DNA of 64,000 nt from Candidatus Chloroploca sp. Khr17. Its GTDB lineage: Bacteria; Chloroflexota; Chloroflexia; Chloroflexales; Chloroflexaceae. Under the pieces are notes generated by a model. That model was given only the letters and a program-made list of their open reading frames with translations. It was not told the origin of the DNA and ran no database searches. Shown here one piece after another: positions 4,972 through 30,902 of the stretch (position 1 is its first letter; every line of letters begins with the position of its first letter). Location: positions 1 to 64,000 of the forward strand of contig NZ_RYFF01000019.1 of the NCBI RefSeq assembly GCF_004138165.1, given 5' to 3'. The position numbers and the translations under genes were made by a program.

Positions 4972-5538
4972 CTACTCGTCCGCGGTAAGGCGGCGGCGCT
5001 CCAGGCGTTCGGTGCCGGTGCGCAGACGCTCGACGGTGCGCTGCAGATCGTCCAGGTAGCGGCCGCCGTCACGGATGAAGAGCAACGAGCGGCGCAGACC
5101 ATTGCGCTCGATCACTGCTGGCAGGCCGGTGGGCAGGGCGACGACCTGCTCGGAGACACGGTTCAGCAGGCGGGTGCCGAGGCCGAGCAGGTTGCTGACC
5201 GGGTCGGTGCCGCGGGGCGGGCTGATCACTGCCAGAGCCATGCGGCGCATCGTCTCGGCGAAGCTCTCGACGCGAATCTCACCCGTGCCACGGATGACTG
5301 TCTGGCAGGCCAGGCGCGTGCCGTCATCGAGTTGGGCCGGGGTGAGCCAGGCCAGTTCGATCTCGCTGGGCGGGTTGAGTTGATCGGCACCGGCGAGCAC
5401 TTGGCAGCGGCAGGTCTGGCAAAGGCCGTTGTTGTCGCAGACAAAGCCGATGTGCGCGGCATTGCGTCGGGCGACATTCAGCACCCGCTCACCGACCTTG
5501 GCCTCCATCGGGACATCGTTGATGATCACGGTGGTCAT
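4972..5538 (-). CDS. [2Fe-2S] ferredoxin with C-terminal extension, chlorosome-type
   Basis: The first 95 residues form a plant-type [2Fe-2S] domain with ligands Cys34, Cys40, Cys43 (Cx5CxxC) and Cys78 (RLACQT). The segment HIGFVCDNNGLCQTC followed by a Pro/Glu region and RLACQT closely resembles, from memory, the N-terminal domains of the green-bacterial chlorosome envelope proteins CsmI/J/X. Residues about 100-188 form a helical, Arg-rich extension with a moderately hydrophobic middle (LLGLGTRLLNRVSEQVVALP). That could associate with the chlorosome monolayer and pass electrons to quench bacteriochlorophyll c under oxidising conditions; this role is inferred. Cys45 is an additional cysteine. 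The gene is divergent from the B12 operon. Confidence 0.75.
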   Translation of the reverse strand: MTTVIINDVPMEAKVGERVLNVARRNAAHIGFVCDNNGLCQTCRCQVLAGADQLNPPSEIELAWLTPAQLDDGTRLACQTVIRGTGEIRVESFAETMRRMALAVISPPRGTDPVSNLLGLGTRLLNRVSEQVVALPTGLPAVIERNGLRRSLLFIRDGGRYLDDLQRTVERLRTGTERLERRRLTADE

Positions 5539-5701: not shown

Positions 5702-5730
5702 TTGACGCAGAGGTTATCCGGTGCTATAGT
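5702..5730 (+). promoter_or_regulatory. Sigma70-like promoter of the B12 operon
   Basis: TTGACG (5702-5707) and TATAGT (5725-5730) are separated by 17 bp. Transcription would start near 5737, about 65 bases ahead of the cobalamin aptamer. The -35 box belongs to a copy of the dispersed TTGACGCA(A/G)AGG repeat. Confidence 0.7.
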
Positions 5731-5800
5731 AGCACGGCGTTGCATATGCTTCACAAACGAGGTGCGACGCGGGACATTTTCCAATTGTATATTCCAGTCA

Positions 5801-5960
5801 GATAGCGGTTCCTCTGGTTTTATGATCAGGGTGAAAGCCGAAGCCGGTGTGAGTCCGGCACTGTCGCGCAACTGTAATGCCTCCCTCAAGGGAGGCAGAG
5901 TCAGGTCGAGCGCCGCTATCTTTGCTGACCTTTCCTTCGCGTAATCTGAGGAAGGCGGAC
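5801..5960 (+). ncRNA. Cobalamin riboswitch
   Basis: The conserved core is unmistakable: GGGTGAAAGCCGAAGCCGG, then GAGTCCGGCACTGTCGCGCA and ACTGTAATG, then a CCTCCCTCAAGGGAGG hairpin and the 3' box AGTCAGGTCGAGCGCC. The closing stem pairs GATAGCGG (5801-5808) with CCGCTATC (5913-5920). A hairpin at about 5928-5955 probably forms the partner of the kissing loop typical of B12 aptamers. It precedes a terminator and a five-gene uptake operon, so B12 should switch expression off by premature termination. Confidence 0.95.
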
Positions 5961-6023
5961 GAGTATGACTGACCCGTAGGAGAACCCACCGGTCCCGCGA
6001 TCGTGGCCCTGCCGGTACATGCA

Positions 6024-6066
6024 CAGCGACCGCCCGACACTTTTGTCGTGCGGTCGCTGTTTGTTT
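6024..6066 (+). terminator. Riboswitch-controlled intrinsic terminator
   Basis: CAGCGACCGC and CGACA pair with TGTCG and GCGGTCGCTG around a short loop, followed by TTTGTTT (6060-6066). The hairpin lies between the aptamer and the first start codon at 6088, as expected for transcriptional control. Confidence 0.88.
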
Positions 6067-6087
6067 GCAGTGTGAGGAGTGTAGGCA

Positions 6088-8421
6088 ATGCATCAGGTTC
6101 GTTTGTTCGTGCTGGCGTGTGGGTTGGCATGTTGTACGTTGCTTGGTTTTGTTGGTATTGCAGCAGCACGCGTTCCTTCTGTTGGGCCGGTGGCTGCACC
6201 GGCGGCTTTTGCGGTACCCCGGACGAGTTATCCCATTCTTGATACGACCCCGATTACCCGTGCGCTCGCCTATCTGGATGGTTCCCAGCGCAACGATGGC
6301 GGTTTTGTTGGCTTTACCCCCGGCCAGAGCGATGATTTTACGAGTGTCAGGGTGGCCTTTGCGCTTGGGGCAGCCCGCCTGCCTGGTGATTATCTGCTCA
6401 GTGACGAGGGCAAGAGCGTCCACGATTATTTGACCACTCGCGCCTATAGCTATACGCACGATCTCCAGGGGCGCCCGCTGCCCGGTCGCCTTGGCATGCT
6501 GATTGTCGCGGCGGTGGCGGGTGAAGCCAATCCGATGGCCTACGGGACTGATCCTGCCGCGCAGCCGCTTGATCTGGTAGCCGCGCTGACAGCAACCTAC
6601 CAGCCGGCGACGGGCGCGTATAGCAGCACCGCATCACTCGGTTTTTCGAGTGGTGCCGCCGGTCCGCTCAATCAGGCGTATGCGCTGCTCGGTCTGGCGG
6701 CAACACAGCAAGCTTTGCCTTCTGAACAAGCGCTGACCTATCTCATTGATCTGCAAGACGCTGATGGTAGCTGGGGCTTTGGGTTTGGGGGCGATGTTGA
6801 TACGACTGCTTTGATTGTCCAGGCGCTGCTTGCCAATGGCGTTGCCCCGACCGCGCCGGTGATCCAGGATGCGCTCGGCTTTCTCGTCGCGAGCCAGATC
6901 GATGACGGGAGCTGGGGCTTCGATGGGTCGCCGAATGCTGACTCGACGGCAGCCGTGATCCAGGCCGCCGCCGCTGCCGGTTTCTTCCCGGTGACCTTGA
7001 GTTGGCAAGCTGCCAATGGCACTCCACAGACGGCGCTGCTGGCCCTGCAACAAGTCGATGGTGGTTTTGGTAATGCCCTTGGCACGGCCAATGCGATCCC
7101 TGGGCTGGCCGAAGCGCCGTTGCCCATCTTTGGCAGCCGCCAGCGGGCCGAACGTGCGTTGGCCTGGTTGCAGACAACGCAGACGAGCAGTGGCGGTTGG
7201 GCGGCCTTTGGCACAACGCCCGACGTAGGGGCAACGCTCGATGTCATGCTAGCGTTTAGCGCGACAGGCTTTGCCCCCGACAGTGTGAGCCAGCCCGGTG
7301 GGGCGTCGGCGCTCGCCTTCTTGCGCAATCAGGTCTTGACCTATACCCGTGTGATCACCACCGCCGGCGATGTTAGCACCAATCTCTTCCCGGCTGCGAC
7401 GGGCAAAGCGCTGCTTGGCATTGTTGCGGCGGGCGAAGATCCAACCGCCTTCGTCGCCAGCCCCGGCGTCACGCTCAATCTCGTCACCGATCTTCAGGCA
7501 ACCCTCCAACCGACTGGTGCCTACAGTACGACAGCGGTACGCGGCTTTAGCAGCGGTGCGGCAACCCCGCTCAGTCAGGCTTTTGCGATCCTGGGCCTGC
7601 GTGCGGCTGACGAAGCTATTCCCGACGAGGCCGTTACATTCCTGCGCCAGCGCCAGAATGCCGAAGATGGCTCGTGGGGCAGTGTTGATACGACGGGCCT
7701 TGTGATCCAGGCGCTTGTTGCGGCCGGGGTCGCGCCCAATGATCCGGCGCTTGCAGCGGCGGTCGCCTTCCTACGCGCCCAGCAGGATGCGCTCGGTGGC
7801 TGGAGTAATCCCAACTCGACGGCCTACGCCATCCAGGGCCTGATCGCCGCTGGCGAAGATCTGCGCAGCGCCTGGCGCAAAGCTGGACGCAGCCCCTTCG
7901 ACGCGCTCGGTCTCTATCAGAAGCCCGATGGCCCGCTGACCTACACCTGGGAAGAGGGTTCGTTCTTTACGCCCGGGACGGTGAACGCCTTTGCGACCTG
8001 GCAGGCAGTGCCCGCGCTGCTCGCCCGCAGCTATCCGTTGCCAGCGGGAACCGATCTGACGCAGTATGTGCCCGTTCTGCGTGGCCCCAATCCCGATCGC
8101 CTGGTCGTGCGGCCAACCACGGGGCGCTGGGGCAACAGCATTGCCGTCAGCCTCCCCTTTGGCGGCGACCTCAATGGTGATGCTACCGCTGAACTCGCAT
8201 GGCGTGCCGCCGGGGCCACCGAATGGCTCACCGCGACCCTTACGCGGGCACCTGGCGTCTTTACCGCGACCCTGCCCGTAACGATGCCGCGGACCTACGA
8301 GCTACGCACGATCGTGAACGACAGCGATGGTGTGCAAGCAGGCACGACGCTAAGCGCGACCTTGACGGCAGTTACGACAGTAGAGCCATTCCGGGCGTAT
8401 GTGCCGCTTGTGTTAAGGTAA
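6088..8421 (+). CDS. Secreted alpha-toroid protein of B12 operon (transcobalamin alpha-domain-like)
   Basis: The 777-residue protein has a signal peptide (1-27) and then two homologous halves (about 45-345 and 350-640) built of squalene-cyclase/prenyltransferase-type repeats: QRNDGGF, DADGSWGF, DDGSWGF, QVDGGFG, SSGGWAAFG, AEDGSWG, ALGGWSNP. Each half contains a matching AYS.TA..GFSSGAA.PL.QA block. The DxDD catalytic motif of squalene-hopene cyclases is absent, so a binding role is more likely than catalysis. A C-terminal beta-rich domain (about 670-765) ends in YVPLVLR, a tail I associate with exported Chloroflexota proteins. A GAGGAG ribosome site (6074-6079) supports the start. Position directly behind a cobalamin riboswitch and ahead of a DUF4430 protein and an ECF transporter suggests extracellular corrinoid capture, as in animal transcobalamin, whose N-terminal domain is also an alpha6/alpha6 barrel. 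Confidence 0.85.
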   Translation: MHQVRLFVLACGLACCTLLGFVGIAAARVPSVGPVAAPAAFAVPRTSYPILDTTPITRALAYLDGSQRNDGGFVGFTPGQSDDFTSVRVAFALGAARLPGDYLLSDEGKSVHDYLTTRAYSYTHDLQGRPLPGRLGMLIVAAVAGEANPMAYGTDPAAQPLDLVAALTATYQPATGAYSSTASLGFSSGAAGPLNQAYALLGLAATQQALPSEQALTYLIDLQDADGSWGFGFGGDVDTTALIVQALLANGVAPTAPVIQDALGFLVASQIDDGSWGFDGSPNADSTAAVIQAAAAAGFFPVTLSWQAANGTPQTALLALQQVDGGFGNALGTANAIPGLAEAPLPIFGSRQRAERALAWLQTTQTSSGGWAAFGTTPDVGATLDVMLAFSATGFAPDSVSQPGGASALAFLRNQVLTYTRVITTAGDVSTNLFPAATGKALLGIVAAGEDPTAFVASPGVTLNLVTDLQATLQPTGAYSTTAVRGFSSGAATPLSQAFAILGLRAADEAIPDEAVTFLRQRQNAEDGSWGSVDTTGLVIQALVAAGVAPNDPALAAAVAFLRAQQDALGGWSNPNSTAYAIQGLIAAGEDLRSAWRKAGRSPFDALGLYQKPDGPLTYTWEEGSFFTPGTVNAFATWQAVPALLARSYPLPAGTDLTQYVPVLRGPNPDRLVVRPTTGRWGNSIAVSLPFGGDLNGDATAELAWRAAGATEWLTATLTRAPGVFTATLPVTMPRTYELRTIVNDSDGVQAGTTLSATLTAVTTVEPFRAYVPLVLR

Positions 8422-8816
8422 GGAGTGTGTGAACGATCTTTTGCCGACCACGAATGGGGCCACGAAGAAACGAATACCGCACCGCAACGCCCATATTCGT
8501 TTCTTCGTGATCAGTATTCGTGGTCGGCGGCGCTACCGGGAAACTTTTGTTACAGACTACTTATGGACTTTGAGAAATTAATTCGCTCCAGCCCACGAAG
8601 GTGGGCTTCGCATCCCATAGCCGAGGGCTTCAGCCCCACGGCATCGGGTTCATAGCGGATCATTTCCTGCAAAACCATCAGTCGGCTTCTGGCTCAGCCG
8701 GCTAAAGCCGGCACTCCCTTCGGCAGCATAGTAGGAAATTTCGTTGACACACACGCAAGCAAGTGGAGCCAAGCCTCCTCCATGGGCGCTCACGTAGGAG
8801 GCCAGAAGAAAAAACA
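8422..8816. other. 395-bp intergenic region packed with hairpin repeats
   Basis: No gene is apparent. The region holds a nested double hairpin (8443-8527), a reverse copy of the AGTCTGTAAC repeat (8541-8558), short Pro/Gly-like GC palindromes around 8590-8640 and a GCCGGCACTCCCTTCGGCAGCA-type block at 8707-8728 shared with 52811-52832. It separates the first two genes of the presumed B12 operon, so the downstream genes may be attenuated or need their own promoter. Confidence 0.6.
8443..8527. repeat. Nested inverted repeats
   Basis: GCCGACCACGAAT (8443-8455) pairs with its complement at 8515-8527. Inside it, CACGAAGAAACGAAT (8461-8475) pairs with 8495-8509. The structure follows the stop codon of the alpha-toroid gene by about 20 bp and has no T-tract. 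Confidence 0.85.
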
Positions 8817-10082
8817 ATGCGACACCTGTTAAAATCCGTCTTCTCTCTTCTTATGTTAAGCTGTCTTGTCTTCTTGAGCGGGCTTGTGCCTGCTGTTCCG
8901 GCGATTCTGGCGGCCCCGGTTGCGCAGAGCCCGGCGCAGGCGGGGCTGATCGTGCGTTTTGGCGATGGCAGCGTACGCACCGCATGCGTTGATCTTGGTG
9001 CGACGGGGCAGCTGACGGGGGAGCAGGCGTTGCGTGCGTCAGGCCTAACCACCATTGTTGCCTTTGAACCAGGGGCGGGGGCTGCCGTCTGCAAGATCGA
9101 ACAGGAGGGCTGCAATTATCCCGCCGAGGGCTGTTTCTGCCAGTGTACGCTTGCCCCAGGCCAGCAGTGTCGCTATTGGGCCTATTATCAATGGAACAAC
9201 AACAACTGGGTCTTTTCACAAGGGGGATCGAGCTCGCGCATTCTCCGCGATGGCGATGTTGACGGTTGGTCGTGGGGGCCAGGCGGCACTGGCTTCGGGG
9301 TAGAACCGCCTGCCGTGCCTTTCGAGCAGATCTGTGTGCCACCGGCAACGGCGACACCCACGGCGACCGCAACGCCAACCGCGACCGCGACACCAACCGC
9401 AACGTCCCTGCCAACCGCGACCGCCACCGCGACGGCAACACCTCAGCCAACCGATGCACCTGCTGCGCCACCGCCGCCCACCGATGCGCCGGTGATCATG
9501 CCCGTGGCAACCAGTACGCCGCAACCCTCGCCAACAACCGTGACCACCACGGCGCTACCTCCTGCCACGGCAACTACGCAATCCACGGCAACGCCGGTGC
9601 CTCCAACAGCGGCAGCAACGTCGGTGCCACCTTCGCCAACCGTCGCAAGCGAAGTAACGCCCGAACCTGGTCTCCCTGAAGTTCCCTCGATTGCTCCGCC
9701 AACGCCAGAGCGCGAGGCAGCAGCGATCTCGACCCAACCCGATCCTGCCTACGAGACCACGCCCGAAGAAGCCCCCGATCAGACGCTGGCGCTGGTGGCT
9801 ATGCTCACTCCTTCGCCCGCACCGGTCTGGTTGCCCATGGTGCAACAGACAGGTTCAGAGCCAACGGTGCAGCTGCCAACGATGGCGATCCAGGTACCAA
9901 CGATCATCCCGGTGGCAACGGCAACCCCTACCGCCACGCCTGAGCCGTCGCCAACGGCGGTGCCCACACCGACGCCCGCGCCAACCAGTCAGCGTCAGGG
10001 CCTGACCTGGTTTTTGGTGATGAGTGTCACCCTTGCCGGAGCCCTCGTGGTGGCACGTTCGCGCCGTGAGCAGGCAATGTGA
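8817..10082 (+). CDS. Membrane-anchored DUF4430-like protein with Thr/Pro stalk
   Basis: The 421-residue protein has a signal peptide (1-about 33), a Cys-rich domain (44-175), a 220-residue stalk of TATPTATP-type repeats, and a C-terminal transmembrane helix (about 398-415) followed by RSRREQ, a type I membrane anchor. The Cys-rich domain shows IVRFGDGSV, VCKIEQEGCNYP, CFCQC, CRYWAYYQW and DGDVDGWSWGPGG. This pattern fits DUF4430, the small beta-domain found at the C-terminus of transcobalamin and intrinsic factor. The start at ATG 8817 was chosen because it places the signal peptide at the N-terminus; a GTG at 8763 is also open. It probably forms the surface partner of the preceding protein in corrinoid binding. 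Confidence 0.82.
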   Translation: MRHLLKSVFSLLMLSCLVFLSGLVPAVPAILAAPVAQSPAQAGLIVRFGDGSVRTACVDLGATGQLTGEQALRASGLTTIVAFEPGAGAAVCKIEQEGCNYPAEGCFCQCTLAPGQQCRYWAYYQWNNNNWVFSQGGSSSRILRDGDVDGWSWGPGGTGFGVEPPAVPFEQICVPPATATPTATATPTATATPTATSLPTATATATATPQPTDAPAAPPPPTDAPVIMPVATSTPQPSPTTVTTTALPPATATTQSTATPVPPTAAATSVPPSPTVASEVTPEPGLPEVPSIAPPTPEREAAAISTQPDPAYETTPEEAPDQTLALVAMLTPSPAPVWLPMVQQTGSEPTVQLPTMAIQVPTIIPVATATPTATPEPSPTAVPTPTPAPTSQRQGLTWFLVMSVTLAGALVVARSRREQAM

Positions 10083-10138
10083 TATAGCACTCCACAGAGG
10101 CATTGCTGCCAGAGCGCATGGGAACGTCATGCACGCCA

Positions 10139-10162
10139 AAATCTGAAATCTGAAATCTGAAA
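10139..10162. repeat. AATCTGA short tandem repeat
   Basis: Three to four tandem AAATCTG heptamers lie just upstream of the ECF S-component start. A related block with CAGATTGTAGATTTTCGATT lies at about 33984-34003. Confidence 0.7.
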
Positions 10163-10171
10163 TGGTCTGAC

Positions 10172-10996
10172 ATGCGTGATCGGTTGATGAGCGGGATGAT
10201 CATTGGGCTGACGACGGTGATCGGGATCATTGCTTTTCTCTACCCGTTCTGGTTGCCGACAGTGGCGACGGGCGGAAGCGGAGGGGCGCACGCTGGGACA
10301 GCCCCGGTGATCCTGACGACCCTCGTGGGCCTGAGCTTTCTGGCACTCCTGTTGGAGGCGCAGCGCGCTGCCGAGCATGCGTTGCTCGTGGCGCTGCTCG
10401 GGGTGCTCGTCGCGATGAATGCGATCCTGCGCTTCATTGATGTTGCGTTACCGTTGCCCGGCGGCTTTTCACCGATCTTCGTCCTGATCATCCTCACGGG
10501 CTATCTCTTTGGCGGCTCGTTTGGCTTTTTGATGGGCACGATGACGCTGCTCGTTTCGGCACTGATTACCGGTGGGGTTGGCCCGTGGCTGCCCTTTCAG
10601 ATGCTGACGGCGGGCTGGGTCGGGCTGACGGCACCGCTTTGTCGGGGGCCAATTCAGCTACTCGGGGGCGTTGGGCGCTACCGCGAGGTGCTGGTGCTCG
10701 CTGTCTTTGGGGCGATCTGGGGGTTTGGGTATGGGGCGATCATGAACCTTTGGTTTTGGCCTTTTGCGAGCGGCCCGGTGGAGCAATACTGGCAGACGGG
10801 CATCGGCTTTATCGAGACGGTGCGCCGCTATCTGACCTTCTACCTTGCAACGTCGCTGCTCTGGGATGTTGCAGGCAGCCTCGGCAATGGCCTGCTCATT
10901 GCCGCCTTTGGCGGGCCCATTCTACGGGTCTTGCGCCGGTTCCAGCGCCGCTTTGCGTTTGTGTTGCGGCACGCACCGCTGAGCGAGGGCTTGTGA
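10172..10996 (+). CDS. cbrT: ECF transporter S component, probably cobalamin-specific
   Basis: A 274-residue integral membrane protein with about seven hydrophobic segments. The central GFSPIFVLIILTGYLFGGSFGFLMG...PWLPFQMLTAGWVGL segment is typical of substrate-binding (S) subunits of energy-coupling-factor vitamin importers. The cobalamin riboswitch upstream and the adjacent T and A subunits point to a corrinoid substrate, as shown for CbrT of lactobacilli. The ribosome site is weak; a start at Met6 or Met9 is possible. It overlaps the T-component start by four bases (GTGA). Confidence 0.85.
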   Translation: MRDRLMSGMIIGLTTVIGIIAFLYPFWLPTVATGGSGGAHAGTAPVILTTLVGLSFLALLLEAQRAAEHALLVALLGVLVAMNAILRFIDVALPLPGGFSPIFVLIILTGYLFGGSFGFLMGTMTLLVSALITGGVGPWLPFQMLTAGWVGLTAPLCRGPIQLLGGVGRYREVLVLAVFGAIWGFGYGAIMNLWFWPFASGPVEQYWQTGIGFIETVRRYLTFYLATSLLWDVAGSLGNGLLIAAFGGPILRVLRRFQRRFAFVLRHAPLSEGL

Positions 10997-12024
10997 CGCC
11001 GCGTTCGCTGCTGCTGGTGCATCCAGTCACCTGGACGATCTGGTTGGGCACGACGCTGCTGACGGTGTCGCTCACGCGGAATCCGCTCTATTTGCTGCTC
11101 TTGCTCTTTGGGTTAACCCTCGTAGCCGAAACCGAACGCCCGACCGGGCGGGCGACGCCCCTTGATCCGATCTTCTTTGCGGTGATCGCGGTTTCGTTTG
11201 GGGCGCTCTTTAATGCCGCGACGATCCGCTATGGCGATACGGTGCTGGTGGCGCTGCCTACGTCGTGGTGGCTGATCGGTGGGCCGATCACGCTCGAAGC
11301 CATCGTTTTTGGCATGATCAACGGCCTGGTGCTCAGTGCGCTGGTCGCCGGATTTGGCGCATTTGGCACCGCGATGCCGATCAGTGCGCTGATCAGCCTT
11401 GTGCCCCGCGCCTTTTACCCCCTGGCCGTCGTGATGAGCGTCGCCGTCACCTATGTCCCGCTGACCATCCGGCTCGCCGGGCAGGTCCGCGAAGCCCAGC
11501 AACTCCGCGGGCATCAGGTGCGCGTCTGGCGCGACGGGCTGCCGCTGCTCTTGCCGCTGCTCATCGGCGGGCTCGAACGAGCCTTGCAACTCGCCGAAGC
11601 GATGGCGGCGCGCGGTTTCGCCGCCGATCCGCCCTCCAATCAGGTCAGAATGATGCTCGTCGGCGGGCTGGCCGCGCTCTTTGCCGGGCTGCTCTTGCAG
11701 TTCGCCTGGGGGCAAGTCGTGGCGGCAAGCGTGACGTTGCTCATAGGCACCGCCCTGATCCTCTGGGCGCTGCGTGAGTCGGGCCAGCAAGCCCCGCGCA
11801 CGCGCTACCGCGTCTATCGCCGGGGCATCCGTGATATGATGGTGTTGCTTGGGGCTGGCCTGACCCTAGTCGCCGTACTGGCACCCTGGCCGGGGCGGGC
11901 GAGTCTGGCGTATACGCCCTATCCGACGTTGCAATTGCCGATCTTCGAGCCACTGCTCGCCTTCGCCCTGATGGGCCTGCTGATGCCTGTGGCGGTACGC
12001 CTGGGCGACCGTTATCTACCATGA
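10993..12024 (+). CDS. cbrV: ECF transporter T component with extra C-terminal helices
   Basis: The GTG at 10993 overlaps the S-component stop and opens a 343-residue membrane protein. It carries the EcfT hallmark: coupling-helix segments with Ala-Arg-Gly signatures (AMAARGFAADPPS near 210-225) after several membrane helices. A charged RVYRRGIRD loop is followed by two further hydrophobic helices (about 278-340) that ordinary EcfT proteins lack. Translational coupling on both sides (GTGA and ATGA overlaps) argues for a stoichiometric complex with the S and A subunits. The symbol follows the naming used for cobalamin ECF systems and is an inference. Confidence 0.85.
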   Translation: MTPRSLLLVHPVTWTIWLGTTLLTVSLTRNPLYLLLLLFGLTLVAETERPTGRATPLDPIFFAVIAVSFGALFNAATIRYGDTVLVALPTSWWLIGGPITLEAIVFGMINGLVLSALVAGFGAFGTAMPISALISLVPRAFYPLAVVMSVAVTYVPLTIRLAGQVREAQQLRGHQVRVWRDGLPLLLPLLIGGLERALQLAEAMAARGFAADPPSNQVRMMLVGGLAALFAGLLLQFAWGQVVAASVTLLIGTALILWALRESGQQAPRTRYRVYRRGIRDMMVLLGAGLTLVAVLAPWPGRASLAYTPYPTLQLPIFEPLLAFALMGLLMPVAVRLGDRYLP

Positions 12025-13664
12025 TTGAGTTTGCGCAGCTATCCTATCGCTACCCCGACCAGCCACAGGTCTGTCTCGACCAGGTGAGTCTGGCGCTGCC
12101 TGCCGGAAGCTTTACGCTGGTGATTGGCCCGTCGGGCAGCGGCAAATCAACGCTGCTCCGCTGTTTGAACGGGCTCGTGCCTCACTTCAGTGGCGGCGAG
12201 GTTGCGGGCAGCGTGCGGGTCGCCGCCTATGATCCCATTGCCCTCGGGCCACGGGTGATGAGTCGCCATGTCGGCATGGTCTTTCAAAGCCCCGAGGCGC
12301 AATTTGTGCTCGAGCGGGTTGAAGACGAGATCGCCTTTGCCCTGGAACATGCCGCCGTGCCACGCGAGCAACTGCGCATCAGGGTCGAAGAGGTGCTTGA
12401 CCTGCTCGATCTCGCACCATTACGTGACCGTTTATTGACGACGCTCTCGGGGGGCGAACGCCAGCGCGTGGCAATTGCCGCAACGCTCGCTTTGCAACCG
12501 ATGGTGCTGGTGCTCGATGAACCAACGAGCCAGCTTGACCCGCAATCGGCGGACGACGTCTTGCAGGCGCTGGTGCGGCTCAATCACGACCTGGGGCTAA
12601 CGATCGTGCTCGCCGAGCACCGCTCCGAGCGCGTTTTGCCGATCGTCGATCTGGTTGTGGCGCTTGATCGGGCCGGGCGCGTAGTCAGCGGCCCGCCGCG
12701 CGAAATCCTGGCGAATAGTCCGCTCTGCCCGCCGCTTGTCACCGTAGCGCGTGCTGCCGGGTGGCAGCCCCTGCCCCTGAGCATCAAAGAGGCGCGTCCC
12801 TTTGCCACGAGGCAAGGTTTGGCCCAACAGGATGCAATAGCTGTGGGGAAGACCGGGGAGGCGGGGCGGGCCAGTGAAACAGGCTCGCCCAGACCACCGC
12901 GACCCTACCTGGAAATACGGGGCCTCGAAGCAGGCTACGGCACCACACCGGTCTTGCGCAACCTGGATCTCACCATTGCGGCGGGCGAAATCACCCTGCT
13001 GATGGGGCGCAACGGCATCGGCAAAAGCACCCTACTCAAATGCATGATCGGCCTCGTGCGGCCACGGCGAGGCGAGATTCGCATTGCAGGGCGTTCGATT
13101 GCGGGGCGCGACATTGCCGCGATCAGCCGCGAGCTTGCCTGCCTCCCGCAGGAACCAGAAAGCATGCTCTTTGCCGACACCGTCGCCGACGAACTGCGCA
13201 CCACCCTGCGCAACCACCGCCTGCCGGTGAACGAAGCGCTCATTGACGAACTGCTTGCGCAACTCGGGCTCAGCGAACGGCGCGAGCGCTACCCACGCGA
13301 CCTGAGCATCGGCGAGCGCCAGCGGGTCGCCCTGGGGGCGATCAGCATCACGCGACCGGGAGGCTTGCTGCTTGACGAACCAACGCGGGGGCTCGACTAC
13401 GAAGCCAAAGCCATGCTCGGCGGCCTCTTGCGCCAATGGAGTCGAGAAGGCACCGCGATCATCGTCGTCTCGCATGATGTCGAATTTGTCGCCGAGATCG
13501 CCGACCGCGTGCTGATTCTCGGCCAAGGCGGCCTGATTGCCGACGGCACCCCGTGGAACGTGCTCGGCAACTCACCGCTCTTCGCCCCCCAGATCGCCCG
13601 CATCTTCCCCGGGCGCGGCTGGCTCACGGCGAGCGATGCTTTGCAGGGGCTGCAAGACAAATAA
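12021..13664 (+). CDS. cbrU: Fused double ATPase of the ECF B12 transporter
   Basis: The 547-residue protein contains two complete ABC ATPase domains. Domain 1 has Walker A GPSGSGKST (36-44), signature LSGGERQRV and Walker B VLVLDEP. Domain 2 (from about 295) has Walker A GRNGIGKST (about 329-337), signature LSIGERQRV and Walker B GLLLDEP. In many ECF systems these are separate EcfA and EcfA' subunits; here they are joined by a linker at about 250-295. The ATG overlaps the T-component stop (ATGA). It ends the B12 operon. Confidence 0.93.
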   Translation: MIEFAQLSYRYPDQPQVCLDQVSLALPAGSFTLVIGPSGSGKSTLLRCLNGLVPHFSGGEVAGSVRVAAYDPIALGPRVMSRHVGMVFQSPEAQFVLERVEDEIAFALEHAAVPREQLRIRVEEVLDLLDLAPLRDRLLTTLSGGERQRVAIAATLALQPMVLVLDEPTSQLDPQSADDVLQALVRLNHDLGLTIVLAEHRSERVLPIVDLVVALDRAGRVVSGPPREILANSPLCPPLVTVARAAGWQPLPLSIKEARPFATRQGLAQQDAIAVGKTGEAGRASETGSPRPPRPYLEIRGLEAGYGTTPVLRNLDLTIAAGEITLLMGRNGIGKSTLLKCMIGLVRPRRGEIRIAGRSIAGRDIAAISRELACLPQEPESMLFADTVADELRTTLRNHRLPVNEALIDELLAQLGLSERRERYPRDLSIGERQRVALGAISITRPGGLLLDEPTRGLDYEAKAMLGGLLRQWSREGTAIIVVSHDVEFVAEIADRVLILGQGGLIADGTPWNVLGNSPLFAPQIARIFPGRGWLTASDALQGLQDK

Positions 13665-28631: not shown

Positions 28632-29630
28632 TTACGGCAAGAAGGCGTTGGTGAAGGCCTCTTCGGGGTCGATCATGGTGCTCAGCAGGTCGCGCTCGAC
28701 CATCCATTGGGCATAGTCGCGCCAGACTTCGACGCGCTGTTCGCCCCAGCGCGGTGCGTTGCCCTGATATTCGTTGGCGAGATAGACCTGGCTCTGCGTA
28801 ACGAGTTCGGCATCGAGTTCAGGTACGGCTTCCAGGAGGAGCGCCGCCGCTGCGTCCGGCTCTTCAATCGCATACTGATACCCCGCACTGGTGGCGGCCA
28901 TAAAACGCCTGAGCAGATCCGGTTGCGTGGCAATCAGCTCTTCGCTGGTGATGAGCACGGGTGTATAGTAATCGGGAATGCAGTTCAGATCGCGAATCAT
29001 GACAATATTCAGATCAATGCCACGCTGCGCAGCCTCGACGCCGGTCCAACCGGCAAAGATCCAGGCAAAGTCAATCGCATCACGTTCGGTGGCAACAAAA
29101 AAGTCACTTGAGCCAATATCAACAAATTGTACCTGGCTGGCATCGGCACCGACACACTCCATCAAGCCGGCGATCACCGCCTGTTCAACCGGCGAACCCC
29201 AAGCGCCATAACGATGCCCAGCAAAGTCAGCCGGCGTGGTGATACCCTTCGCGGCACGACTGGCAAAACCACTCGTATTGCTCTGGATAATCGCCGCCAC
29301 CGCGACAATCGGCAGGCCAACAACCCGCGCCTCGGTCACCGCCTCTTGATATGAAATGCCAAGATCGAGCCGCCCGGTCGCCACCAACTGCTCGACCGTG
29401 CCGCCCTCCTGGGCCTGCAAAATCTCCACCTCAAGCCCCTGCTCACGATAGAACCCACGGTCACGGGCGACATAGAGCCCGGTATGATTGGTATTGGGTG
29501 TCCAGTCGAGACCAACGCGCAACCGGACAGGTTCAGGATCGGTTGGGGTGGGTGAAAGTCCGCCCGCACCATTCCCACCACAGGCGCTCAGCCCGAGCAC
29601 CAACAGGATCACAAGCATCAACCAGCGCAT
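28632..29630 (-). CDS. thiY: THI5/NMT1-like substrate-binding lipoprotein
   Basis: A 332-residue solute-binding protein with a lipobox (LSACGG, Cys about 17) and an NMT1/THI5 fold: VRLRVGLDWTPNTNHTGLYVARDRGFYREQGLEVE, then LDLGISYQEAV and the GIDLNIVMIRDL region. Family members bind the thiamine precursor HMP or related pyrimidines and deliver them to an ABC importer. The operon is governed by a TPP riboswitch, which supports this. ATG 29630 overlaps the permease stop; a GTG directly before it would add one residue. Confidence 0.88.
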   Translation of the reverse strand: MRWLMLVILLVLGLSACGGNGAGGLSPTPTDPEPVRLRVGLDWTPNTNHTGLYVARDRGFYREQGLEVEILQAQEGGTVEQLVATGRLDLGISYQEAVTEARVVGLPIVAVAAIIQSNTSGFASRAAKGITTPADFAGHRYGAWGSPVEQAVIAGLMECVGADASQVQFVDIGSSDFFVATERDAIDFAWIFAGWTGVEAAQRGIDLNIVMIRDLNCIPDYYTPVLITSEELIATQPDLLRRFMAATSAGYQYAIEEPDAAAALLLEAVPELDAELVTQSQVYLANEYQGNAPRWGEQRVEVWRDYAQWMVERDLLSTMIDPEEAFTNAFLP

Positions 29631-30412
29631 CACTCAGTTCCTTTCCAAGCAAGCAAACGACGTTCGAGCACAACGATCAGCGCAAAGAGGATCAGGGTCA
29701 AGAGCGACGTGACGAGGGCCGCAACAAAGACCTGATCGGTGCGGAAGGCGCGCAGCGAACGGGCAATATAGACCCCGAGGCCCGCCTCGGCCCCGATCCA
29801 TTCGGCAATCACAGCGGCAATGACGCTATAGGTCACCGCGATGCGCAAGCCACGAAAAAACGAAGGCAACGCGGCGGGCCAACGCAGCAGGCGCAGGGTC
29901 TGCCAATAACTGGCATCCATCGCCTGAAAGAGCCGCACCATCTCACGGTCAGCATCGCGCAGCCCACCGGCGAGACTAACCGTAATTGGAAAAAACGTAA
30001 CCAGCGCCACGACCAGCACCTTGGGGAGCAGGCCGAAACCGAGGCCGATCACGAGCAACGGGGCAATCGCAACAATCGGCACCGTCTGCGAAACGACGAG
30101 CAACGGATAGACCGCCCGCCGGATCAGGGGCACCGCATCAAGCGCCAGGGCAAGCCCGATCCCCGTGACGAGCGCCAGACCCGCCCCGAGCGCTGTCACC
30201 CGCAGCGTCGCGACCACGTGCCCCCCAAGGATCGGCAGGCTCTCGACAAACGTCTGGCCCACCCGCGAAGGCGCGGGCAAGAGCCAGACCGGCACAGCCA
30301 AGAGGCGCACCAACACCTCCCACGCCACCAGCAGACTGGTCAGGAGGATCGCCGGAGGCAGCCACTGGTAAAGCACCTGGCGCATCAGGGCCAAACGGCG
30401 ACTAGCCGCCAT
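29630..30412 (-). CDS. thiX: ABC transporter permease for thiamine precursor
   Basis: A roughly 260-residue inner-membrane permease with about six helices and the EAA-like loop (MDASYWQTLRLLRWPAALPSFFRGLRIA). It is of the SsuC/TauC type usually paired with NMT1-like binding proteins. ATG 30412 overlaps the preceding thiamine-binding gene by 11 bases; ATG 30385 is an alternative. No ATPase gene is found next to it, so the energising subunit must be encoded elsewhere or shared. Confidence 0.87.
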   Translation of the reverse strand: MAASRRLALMRQVLYQWLPPAILLTSLLVAWEVLVRLLAVPVWLLPAPSRVGQTFVESLPILGGHVVATLRVTALGAGLALVTGIGLALALDAVPLIRRAVYPLLVVSQTVPIVAIAPLLVIGLGFGLLPKVLVVALVTFFPITVSLAGGLRDADREMVRLFQAMDASYWQTLRLLRWPAALPSFFRGLRIAVTYSVIAAVIAEWIGAEAGLGVYIARSLRAFRTDQVFVAALVTSLLTLILFALIVVLERRLLAWKGTE

Positions 30413-30698
30413 ACTTGGCCAGCTTCTCCTCGATCGACGAGCCAAGTGGATCATAATCAACCTTGATCAACGTAAAGACCCGCGCAGCCCCGGCCTGCAA
30501 CACCGCCTCTTGCGCCGCCTTGATCACCGCCATCACCGCATCGTACTCACCCTCAAGCGTCGTCTCCATCGACGACACGCGATAGGACAAACCACTGGCG
30601 GCCACCACCGCAATCGCCGCATCAACGGCGGCATAGGTTGCCGCCTTATCCGCGAGACCACCGGGCAACACCTGAAAACTCACGGCAATCGGTGCCAT
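30402..30698 (-). CDS. Thiamine-binding protein (MTH1187/YkoF family)
   Basis: A 98-residue ferredoxin-fold protein. It starts MAPIAVSFQVLPGG and continues with YRVSSMETTLEGEYDAVMAVIKAAQEAV and VFTLIKVDYDPLGSSIEEKLAKYGG. MTH1187/YkoF-like proteins bind thiamine or its pyrimidine moiety in the cytoplasm. It is the first gene after the TPP riboswitch and has a GAGAGGAG ribosome site just beyond the terminator. Confidence 0.9.
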   Translation of the reverse strand: MAPIAVSFQVLPGGLADKAATYAAVDAAIAVVAASGLSYRVSSMETTLEGEYDAVMAVIKAAQEAVLQAGAARVFTLIKVDYDPLGSSIEEKLAKYGG

Positions 30699-30713
30699 AC
30701 CTGCTCCTCTCGA

Positions 30714-30756
30714 CAAAACAAAACGGCCATTGCCCCAACGAAGGAGCAACGGCCGT
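30714..30756 (-). terminator. TPP-riboswitch terminator
   Basis: On the minus strand ACGGCCGTTGC (30746-30756) pairs with GCAATGGCCGT (30723-30733), followed by TTTTGTTTT. It separates the TPP aptamer from the thiamine-binding gene, so TPP should cause premature termination. Confidence 0.88.
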
Positions 30757-30768
30757 CAACACGCCGTA

Positions 30769-30866
30769 GATGCTTCCCTCCGCTGGCACTACCCAGGTCA
30801 GGTTCGAAGGGTTAGCGGCATTATGGGCCACACTCTCAGCCAGGCTCACCTGGCCCCCCCAGCATG
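30769..30866 (-). ncRNA. TPP (THI-element) riboswitch
   Basis: The reverse complement contains CTGGGGGGGCC, GGCTGAGAGTG, ACCCTTCGAACCTGACCTGG and GTAGTGCCAGCGGAGGGAAG, the standard conserved blocks of a bacterial TPP aptamer. ATGCT and AGCAT close the outer stem. It controls the three thiamine-uptake genes at 28632-30698. Confidence 0.96.
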
Positions 30867-30902
30867 TGCGCTTGCTGGCGCACATCATTGATTGTTGTGG
30901 GT

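Follow-up and report, generated by a model that had tools for sequence, protein, structure and literature searches.

Transcobalamin-type folds on two predicted surface proteins in a riboswitch-linked, probable vitamin B12 import locus of Candidatus Chloroploca sp. Khr17

Why would a bacterium carry the two folds of the animal vitamin B12 carriers, an alpha/alpha toroid and a transcobalamin-type beta-grasp domain, on two separate proteins beside an importer of the energy-coupling factor (ECF) type? The prevailing view is that ECF transporters do not require a binding protein outside the cell. Here, we describe the locus that raises this question, positions 5702-13664 of the forward strand in a 64,000-nucleotide stretch of Candidatus Chloroploca sp. 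Khr17 (contig NZ_RYFF01000019.1, positions 1-64,000; the whole stretch is called the window below). From sequence comparison and structure models, we regard it as very probably a cobalamin-repressed operon for the capture and import of ready-made vitamin B12. A first-pass annotation of the window had likened its two surface proteins to transcobalamin, and the core of that idea was already published in 2007 (Burroughs et al., 2007; PMC1796856).

The leader and the five genes behind it are listed in Table 1. As the annotation had claimed, a cobalamin riboswitch with its own terminator precedes genes for a secreted double alpha-toroid protein, a membrane-anchored protein, and an ECF transporter with S, T and fused AA subunits. 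The riboswitch scores above the gathering threshold and is the sole cobalamin riboswitch detected in the 6.4-Mb assembly, where 150 of 282 first-look candidates were scored and weak ones may be missed. The terminator region (6019-6070) folds with -29.9 kcal/mol (z -6.8), and no shuffled sequence was as stable; the hairpin, which was absent from the output of a simple terminator scan, is likely the expression platform of the riboswitch. The promoter-like site is placed as fits a riboswitch leader, but chance alone should produce about one site of this kind, and its role as a promoter is suggestive only. The locus is likely one transcription unit, in which neighbours among genes 3 to 5 overlap by 4 bp, and genes 1 and 2 are separated by 395 bp without an assigned gene. 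For gene 2, the ATG at 8817, which lies behind AGGAGG, was preferred over the GTG at 8763 where the listed open reading frame starts, giving a protein of 421 amino acids.

Table 1. Features of the locus in window coordinates
Feature	Positions	Strand	Basis
Promoter-like site TTGACG-17 nt-TATAGT, TG before the -10	5702-5730	+	Consensus scan
Cobalamin riboswitch aptamer RF00174	5789-5931	+	cmscan 49.9 bits, gathering score 31.5
Intrinsic terminator, hairpin 6024-6059 and TTTGTTTG tail	6024-6067	+	RNA fold
Gene 1, secreted protein with two alpha/alpha toroids and a C-terminal region ending YVPLVLR	6088-8421	+	777 aa; SQHop toroid repeats
Gene 2, beta-grasp domain (about 8946-9341), long Pro/Thr-rich linker, C-terminal membrane anchor	8817-10082	+	AlphaFold, structure match, hhalign, hydropathy
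Gene 3, ECF S component, CbrT-related	10172-10996	+	Pfam ECF_trnsprt E 1.2e-8; profile A4 against PDB
Gene 4, ECF T component (CbiQ family)	10993-12024	+	Pfam CbiQ E 1.1e-7
Gene 5, fused ECF A-A' ATPase	12021-13664	+	TIGR04520 329.6 bits (cut-off 315); ABC_tran in two stretches

Protein 2 has a signal peptide and a single C-terminal hydrophobic segment. The AlphaFold model of its beta domain is confident (predicted local distance difference test, pLDDT, 92.9), and the first sixteen matches of a Foldseek search with it are transcobalamin, haptocorrin, intrinsic factor and the Ruminococcus gnavus domain 3u7z. When realigned to these proteins, among which 3u7z is a bacterial DUF4430-like domain, the model scores Z 10.4-11.9, while unrelated folds reach 5.6 at most. 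A beta-hairpin inserted after the helix of a five-stranded beta-grasp is the defining mark of the transcobalamin-type clade of soluble-ligand-binding beta-grasp (SLBB) domains (PMC1796856). The model has such a hairpin, formed by strands 49-54 and 58-64 and lying between a helix (38-44) and the third strand (88-97). In an alignment of 37 sequences (A1; 41% mean column identity), C62, C76, W91 and W101 are invariant, and the hairpin columns hold no single conserved aromatic residue that would be a candidate ligand contact. Compared by hhalign with 16 true DUF4430 domains of Chloroflexota, the protein 2 family gave a probability of 94.2% (E 1.2e-7) in register, against 0.5% for a membrane-protein profile and 0.1% for a reversed profile used as negative controls. 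Transcobalamin is among the structures on which AlphaFold was trained, and the profile-profile result is independent of that training. Searched by sequence against the PDB, the beta domain returned nothing useful, the best matches being antibodies with E 0.02 or worse, and the Pfam DUF4430 model (PF14478) found no match in protein 2, in the 36 homologous domains or in the whole host genome. Because of the hairpin, the structure match and the profile comparison, we place protein 2 by model and sequence in the transcobalamin-type beta-grasp clade, yet outside the curated Pfam family. Residues 44-175, for which the annotation had asked for a structural match to DUF4430, thus agree in structure with the beta domain of transcobalamin and intrinsic factor; the predicted membrane anchor also holds, and the DUF4430 label of the annotation stands at the level of structure and profile-profile comparison but not as a Pfam match. 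In Candidatus Chloroploca mongolica (L031), the beta-grasp gene is tandemly duplicated (9296-9856 and 10012-11268), the first copy being far shorter (187 amino acids); the window holds one copy and the 395-bp gap at the corresponding place.

Protein 1 matches SQHop_cyclase_C of Pfam with E 5.5e-19, which places it with the alpha/alpha toroids of the terpenoid cyclase superfamily. Its two toroids are an internal duplication, the halves being 38% identical (E 6e-42). The protein likely carries a signal peptide, judged from its sequence, and no C-terminal anchor was seen in its hydropathy profile. A confident model was obtained for the toroids of a relative, and it resembles many alpha6/alpha6 proteins with Z 20-26; intrinsic factor is present among the 50 best structure matches and transcobalamin itself is not. 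Since so many alpha6/alpha6 proteins match, the toroid fold by itself says little about B12, and the evidence comes from its partners.

The transporter genes supply one such partner. S, T and A/A' subunits lie together, as in an ECF transporter with a dedicated module. Searched against the PDB, the S-subunit profile (A4) matched 6fnp_A, the ECF-CbrT structure, best (E 1.7e-9), followed by FolT at 0.002, and no Pfam CbiM match was found in the S subunit. ECF-CbrT has been shown to transport cobalamin and cobinamide (PMC5997447). The central claim of the annotation, that the two transcobalamin folds occur on separate bacterial proteins beside a predicted B12 importer, is supported by the beta-domain scores, the toroid matches and the nearness of the S subunit to CbrT.

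The two folds are also fused naturally. In ten proteins, toroid and beta-grasp folds are joined in one chain, in either order: toroid-toroid-beta in L073 and L131, and beta-toroid-toroid in L036, L115, L118, L119, L121, L123, L124 and L127. In L073, a riboswitch of 61.7 bits immediately precedes the fusion gene, and S, T and AA genes come after it. That fusion occurs in both orders argues strongly for a joint function of the two folds. In another Chloroflexota class, three loci (L222, L232, L233) hold a canonical DUF4430 domain behind a toroid-like sequence in one long frame of 655-661 amino acids, apparently classic toroid-DUF4430 fusions coexisting in the phylum.

The association with cobalamin regulation extends across relatives. 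A single-sequence search found relatives of protein 2 in 59 of 301 sampled Chloroflexota genomes, and the operon is also present in two further genomes of the host genus. RF00174 was detected in 41 of the 50 related Chloroflexota loci that were scanned for RNAs. Wherever the positions of both were measured, the riboswitch almost always lies no more than about 200 bp upstream of gene 1; by our estimate, assuming a handful of riboswitches per genome, a chance match in an 18-kb stretch would arise in a few per cent of cases. Of the 40 loci of the first set, 32 have a T-component homologue in the stretch examined. Homologues thus lie mostly in B12-regulated loci, which is the opposite of what the annotation had named as a refutation. 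CobC and CobS as operon partners in L038 lend further support to a B12 role. In four loci (L074, L081, L083, L084), a beta-grasp gene and ECF genes come immediately after the riboswitch, and no toroid gene was recognised. A second search based on the S subunit gave 80 named genome loci. Both partners are present in 43 of them and the beta protein in another 8, Acidimicrobiia-type Actinobacteria being included, and many of the remaining loci end early at contig ends. Among 13 loci chosen for lying mostly outside Chloroflexota, 8 carry RF00174.

The host itself appears to depend on the vitamin. Its genome encodes a methionine synthase (MetH) activation domain in a 1204-residue frame and 11 B12-binding domains above the Pfam cut-off, and the draft assembly yielded no match to CbiC or to CobS, which are single markers and not proof. 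The only clear FecCD-type (BtuC) permease in this draft is split over two frames on contig C22; weaker FecCD matches exist, and those on C82 resemble a metal permease of the ATP-binding cassette (ABC) type. The simplest reading is that the host uses B12 and must import complete cobalamin. The split permease lacks about 80 profile positions and lies about 3 kb from a BtuF-like helical-backbone metal receptor, and the two (L107, 5271-6151 and 9576-10406) are possibly a decayed BtuFCD-type importer.

In the operon as we read it, the leader would read through the terminator when intracellular cobalamin is low. Protein 1 would be exported with its two toroids, and protein 2 would display its beta-grasp domain on a long flexible stalk anchored in the membrane. 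Together they would most likely hold cobalamin between a toroid cavity and the beta-grasp face, much as animal transcobalamin does with its alpha and beta domains. Captured B12, raised in local concentration, would then pass to the CbrT-like S component, and the dedicated T and fused AA subunits would power import with ATP, as is established for ECF transporters. A further step, possible in our view and offered tentatively, is that this split cell-surface transcobalamin is a dedicated ECF receptor, whose two proteins assemble round cobalamin and dock on the CbrT-like S subunit, and that the family fused in either order is a bacterial lineage of the animal module.

Several observations weigh against this picture. 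No riboswitch was matched in 9 of the 50 scanned loci; L035, L037, L043 and L057-L060 have the pair or the beta protein but no ECF module close by, and in L074, L081, L083 and L084 no toroid partner of the beta protein was recognised. The relative's toroids are closer to squalene-hopene cyclases (Z 26) than to intrinsic factor (Z 20.3). The model of the L131 fusion (pLDDT 87.6, its linker below 50 at 30-40) has transcobalamin as its top Foldseek match across both domains. The root-mean-square deviation is about 24 A, however, and although each domain matches, the relative pose of the transcobalamin domains is not reproduced. The surface pair could also capture B12 in another way than by a transcobalamin-like sandwich, with the beta protein or the toroids binding alone and the other part serving as scaffold, receptor or wall attachment; the partnerless beta proteins of those four loci are riboswitch-linked, the L131 model lacks fixed docking, and the title of PDB entry 5np4 gives the isolated human transcobalamin beta domain as crystallised with cyanocobalamin. 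Set against the strong co-occurrence of both folds and their repeated fusion in both orders, we hold this alternative to be rather unlikely. It is distinctly improbable that the system mainly imports incomplete corrinoids such as cobinamide, or several cobamides for remodelling, in place of cobalamin. CbrT carries cobinamide too (PMC5997447), and in L038 the pair is followed by genes for an alpha-ribazole phosphatase (CobC), a cobalamin synthase (CobS) and a T component; the host genome, however, has no CobS match, and so the host could not complete cobinamide by the known route.

There is very little chance that the transporter is a CbiMNQO-type cobalt or nickel importer under cobalamin control, with secreted proteins that bind metal or something else. 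Cobalt importers are often regulated by cobalamin and the T subunit belongs to the CbiQ family, but the S subunit is nearest to CbrT and without a CbiM match, the CbiC and CobS markers are missing from the draft assembly, and the domain of protein 2 is of the transcobalamin type; we rejected this reading on the CbrT-related S subunit and the missing synthesis markers. Just as hard to credit is a protein 1 that is a secreted terpene-cyclase-like enzyme, unrelated to B12 and merely sharing the operon. Squalene-hopene cyclases are indeed the best Pfam and structure matches of the toroid, but the signal peptide and the persistent coupling to riboswitch and beta protein argue otherwise, and in toroid 1 the region of DXDD, which we take to be the cyclase motif, reads DVDTT.

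The probable operon for capture and import of B12 has parallels in several known systems. It shares both folds with animal transcobalamin, intrinsic factor and haptocorrin, through the beta-domain scores given above and the relative's toroids at Z of about 20 to intrinsic factor. The animal layout, one toroid and one beta domain in that order on a single chain, is not found in the window, where the folds lie in separate genes; the operon has two proteins, one of them membrane-anchored, two toroids, about 9-14% identity to the animal carriers, and an ECF pump in place of receptor-mediated endocytosis. BtuG of Bacteroides has a different fold, a beta-propeller, and a different partner, the outer-membrane protein BtuB. 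Judged by the title of the source, the BtuG surface lipoproteins capture B12 at the cell surface, the role that we propose for our locus (PMC6143338). ECF-CbrT of Lactobacillus delbrueckii (6FNP) has the related S subunit and ECF T and A subunits; its ECF module also serves other S subunits, and in reconstitution it transports B12 without a capture partner (PMC5997447), whereas here a dedicated module adjoins the putative capture proteins. The NCBIfam families SCO2321_fam and SCO2322_fam, from Streptomyces coelicolor, partially match proteins 1 and 2, both below the curated cut-offs (99.3 bits against 300 and 29.9 bits against 85), and from sequence they are probably actinobacterial relatives. 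No paper mentioning SCO2322 was found in the open-licence literature, nor, searching there for SCO2322, CbrTUV and DUF4430, any experimental work on a bacterial member.

The closest precedent is the set of SLBB proteins of Burroughs et al. (2007), who found bacterial beta-grasp domains of the transcobalamin type joined to toroids at either the N or the C terminus. They noted operons with CbiO/CbiQ-like genes and hosts that usually lack B12 synthesis, predicted a role in scavenging B12, and suggested that the module was transferred to animals (PMC1796856). The family described here has the same two folds, fusion in either order, signal peptides and CbiO/CbiQ-like operon genes. Those proteins were reported mainly from low-GC Gram-positives, planctomycetes and euryarchaea, and no riboswitch is mentioned in PMC1796856. 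New over the 2007 work are a divergent family missed by Pfam DUF4430, its usual split into two polypeptides (with a duplicated toroid in the window), the riboswitch at most loci, the relation of the S subunit to CbrT, and the distribution in Chloroflexota and Acidimicrobiia.

Elsewhere in the window, the divergent neighbour of the operon (4972-5538, reverse strand) codes for a protein that has a 2Fe-2S ferredoxin domain (Fer2, E 8.5e-11) and is extended at its C terminus. A thiamin pyrophosphate (TPP) riboswitch of 67.9 bits (30758-30870, reverse strand) lies upstream of a permease gene (29630-30460) and of a gene for an NMT1/THI5-like binding protein (28632-29633); judged from sequence, 28632-30870 (reverse strand) would encode an ordinary ABC importer for a thiamin precursor.

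The locus ties the two folds of the human B12 carriers to a cobalamin riboswitch and a predicted importer of the CbrT type, and its host seemingly depends on external B12. Its proteins belong to a family that is widespread in Chloroflexota, has counterparts in Acidimicrobiia and is unseen by the Pfam DUF4430 model. With these defined proteins, the 2007 prediction that bacteria have transcobalamins, and that these were transferred to animals, can now be tested directly, and the locus suggests that some ECF transporters work with dedicated extracellular capture proteins.

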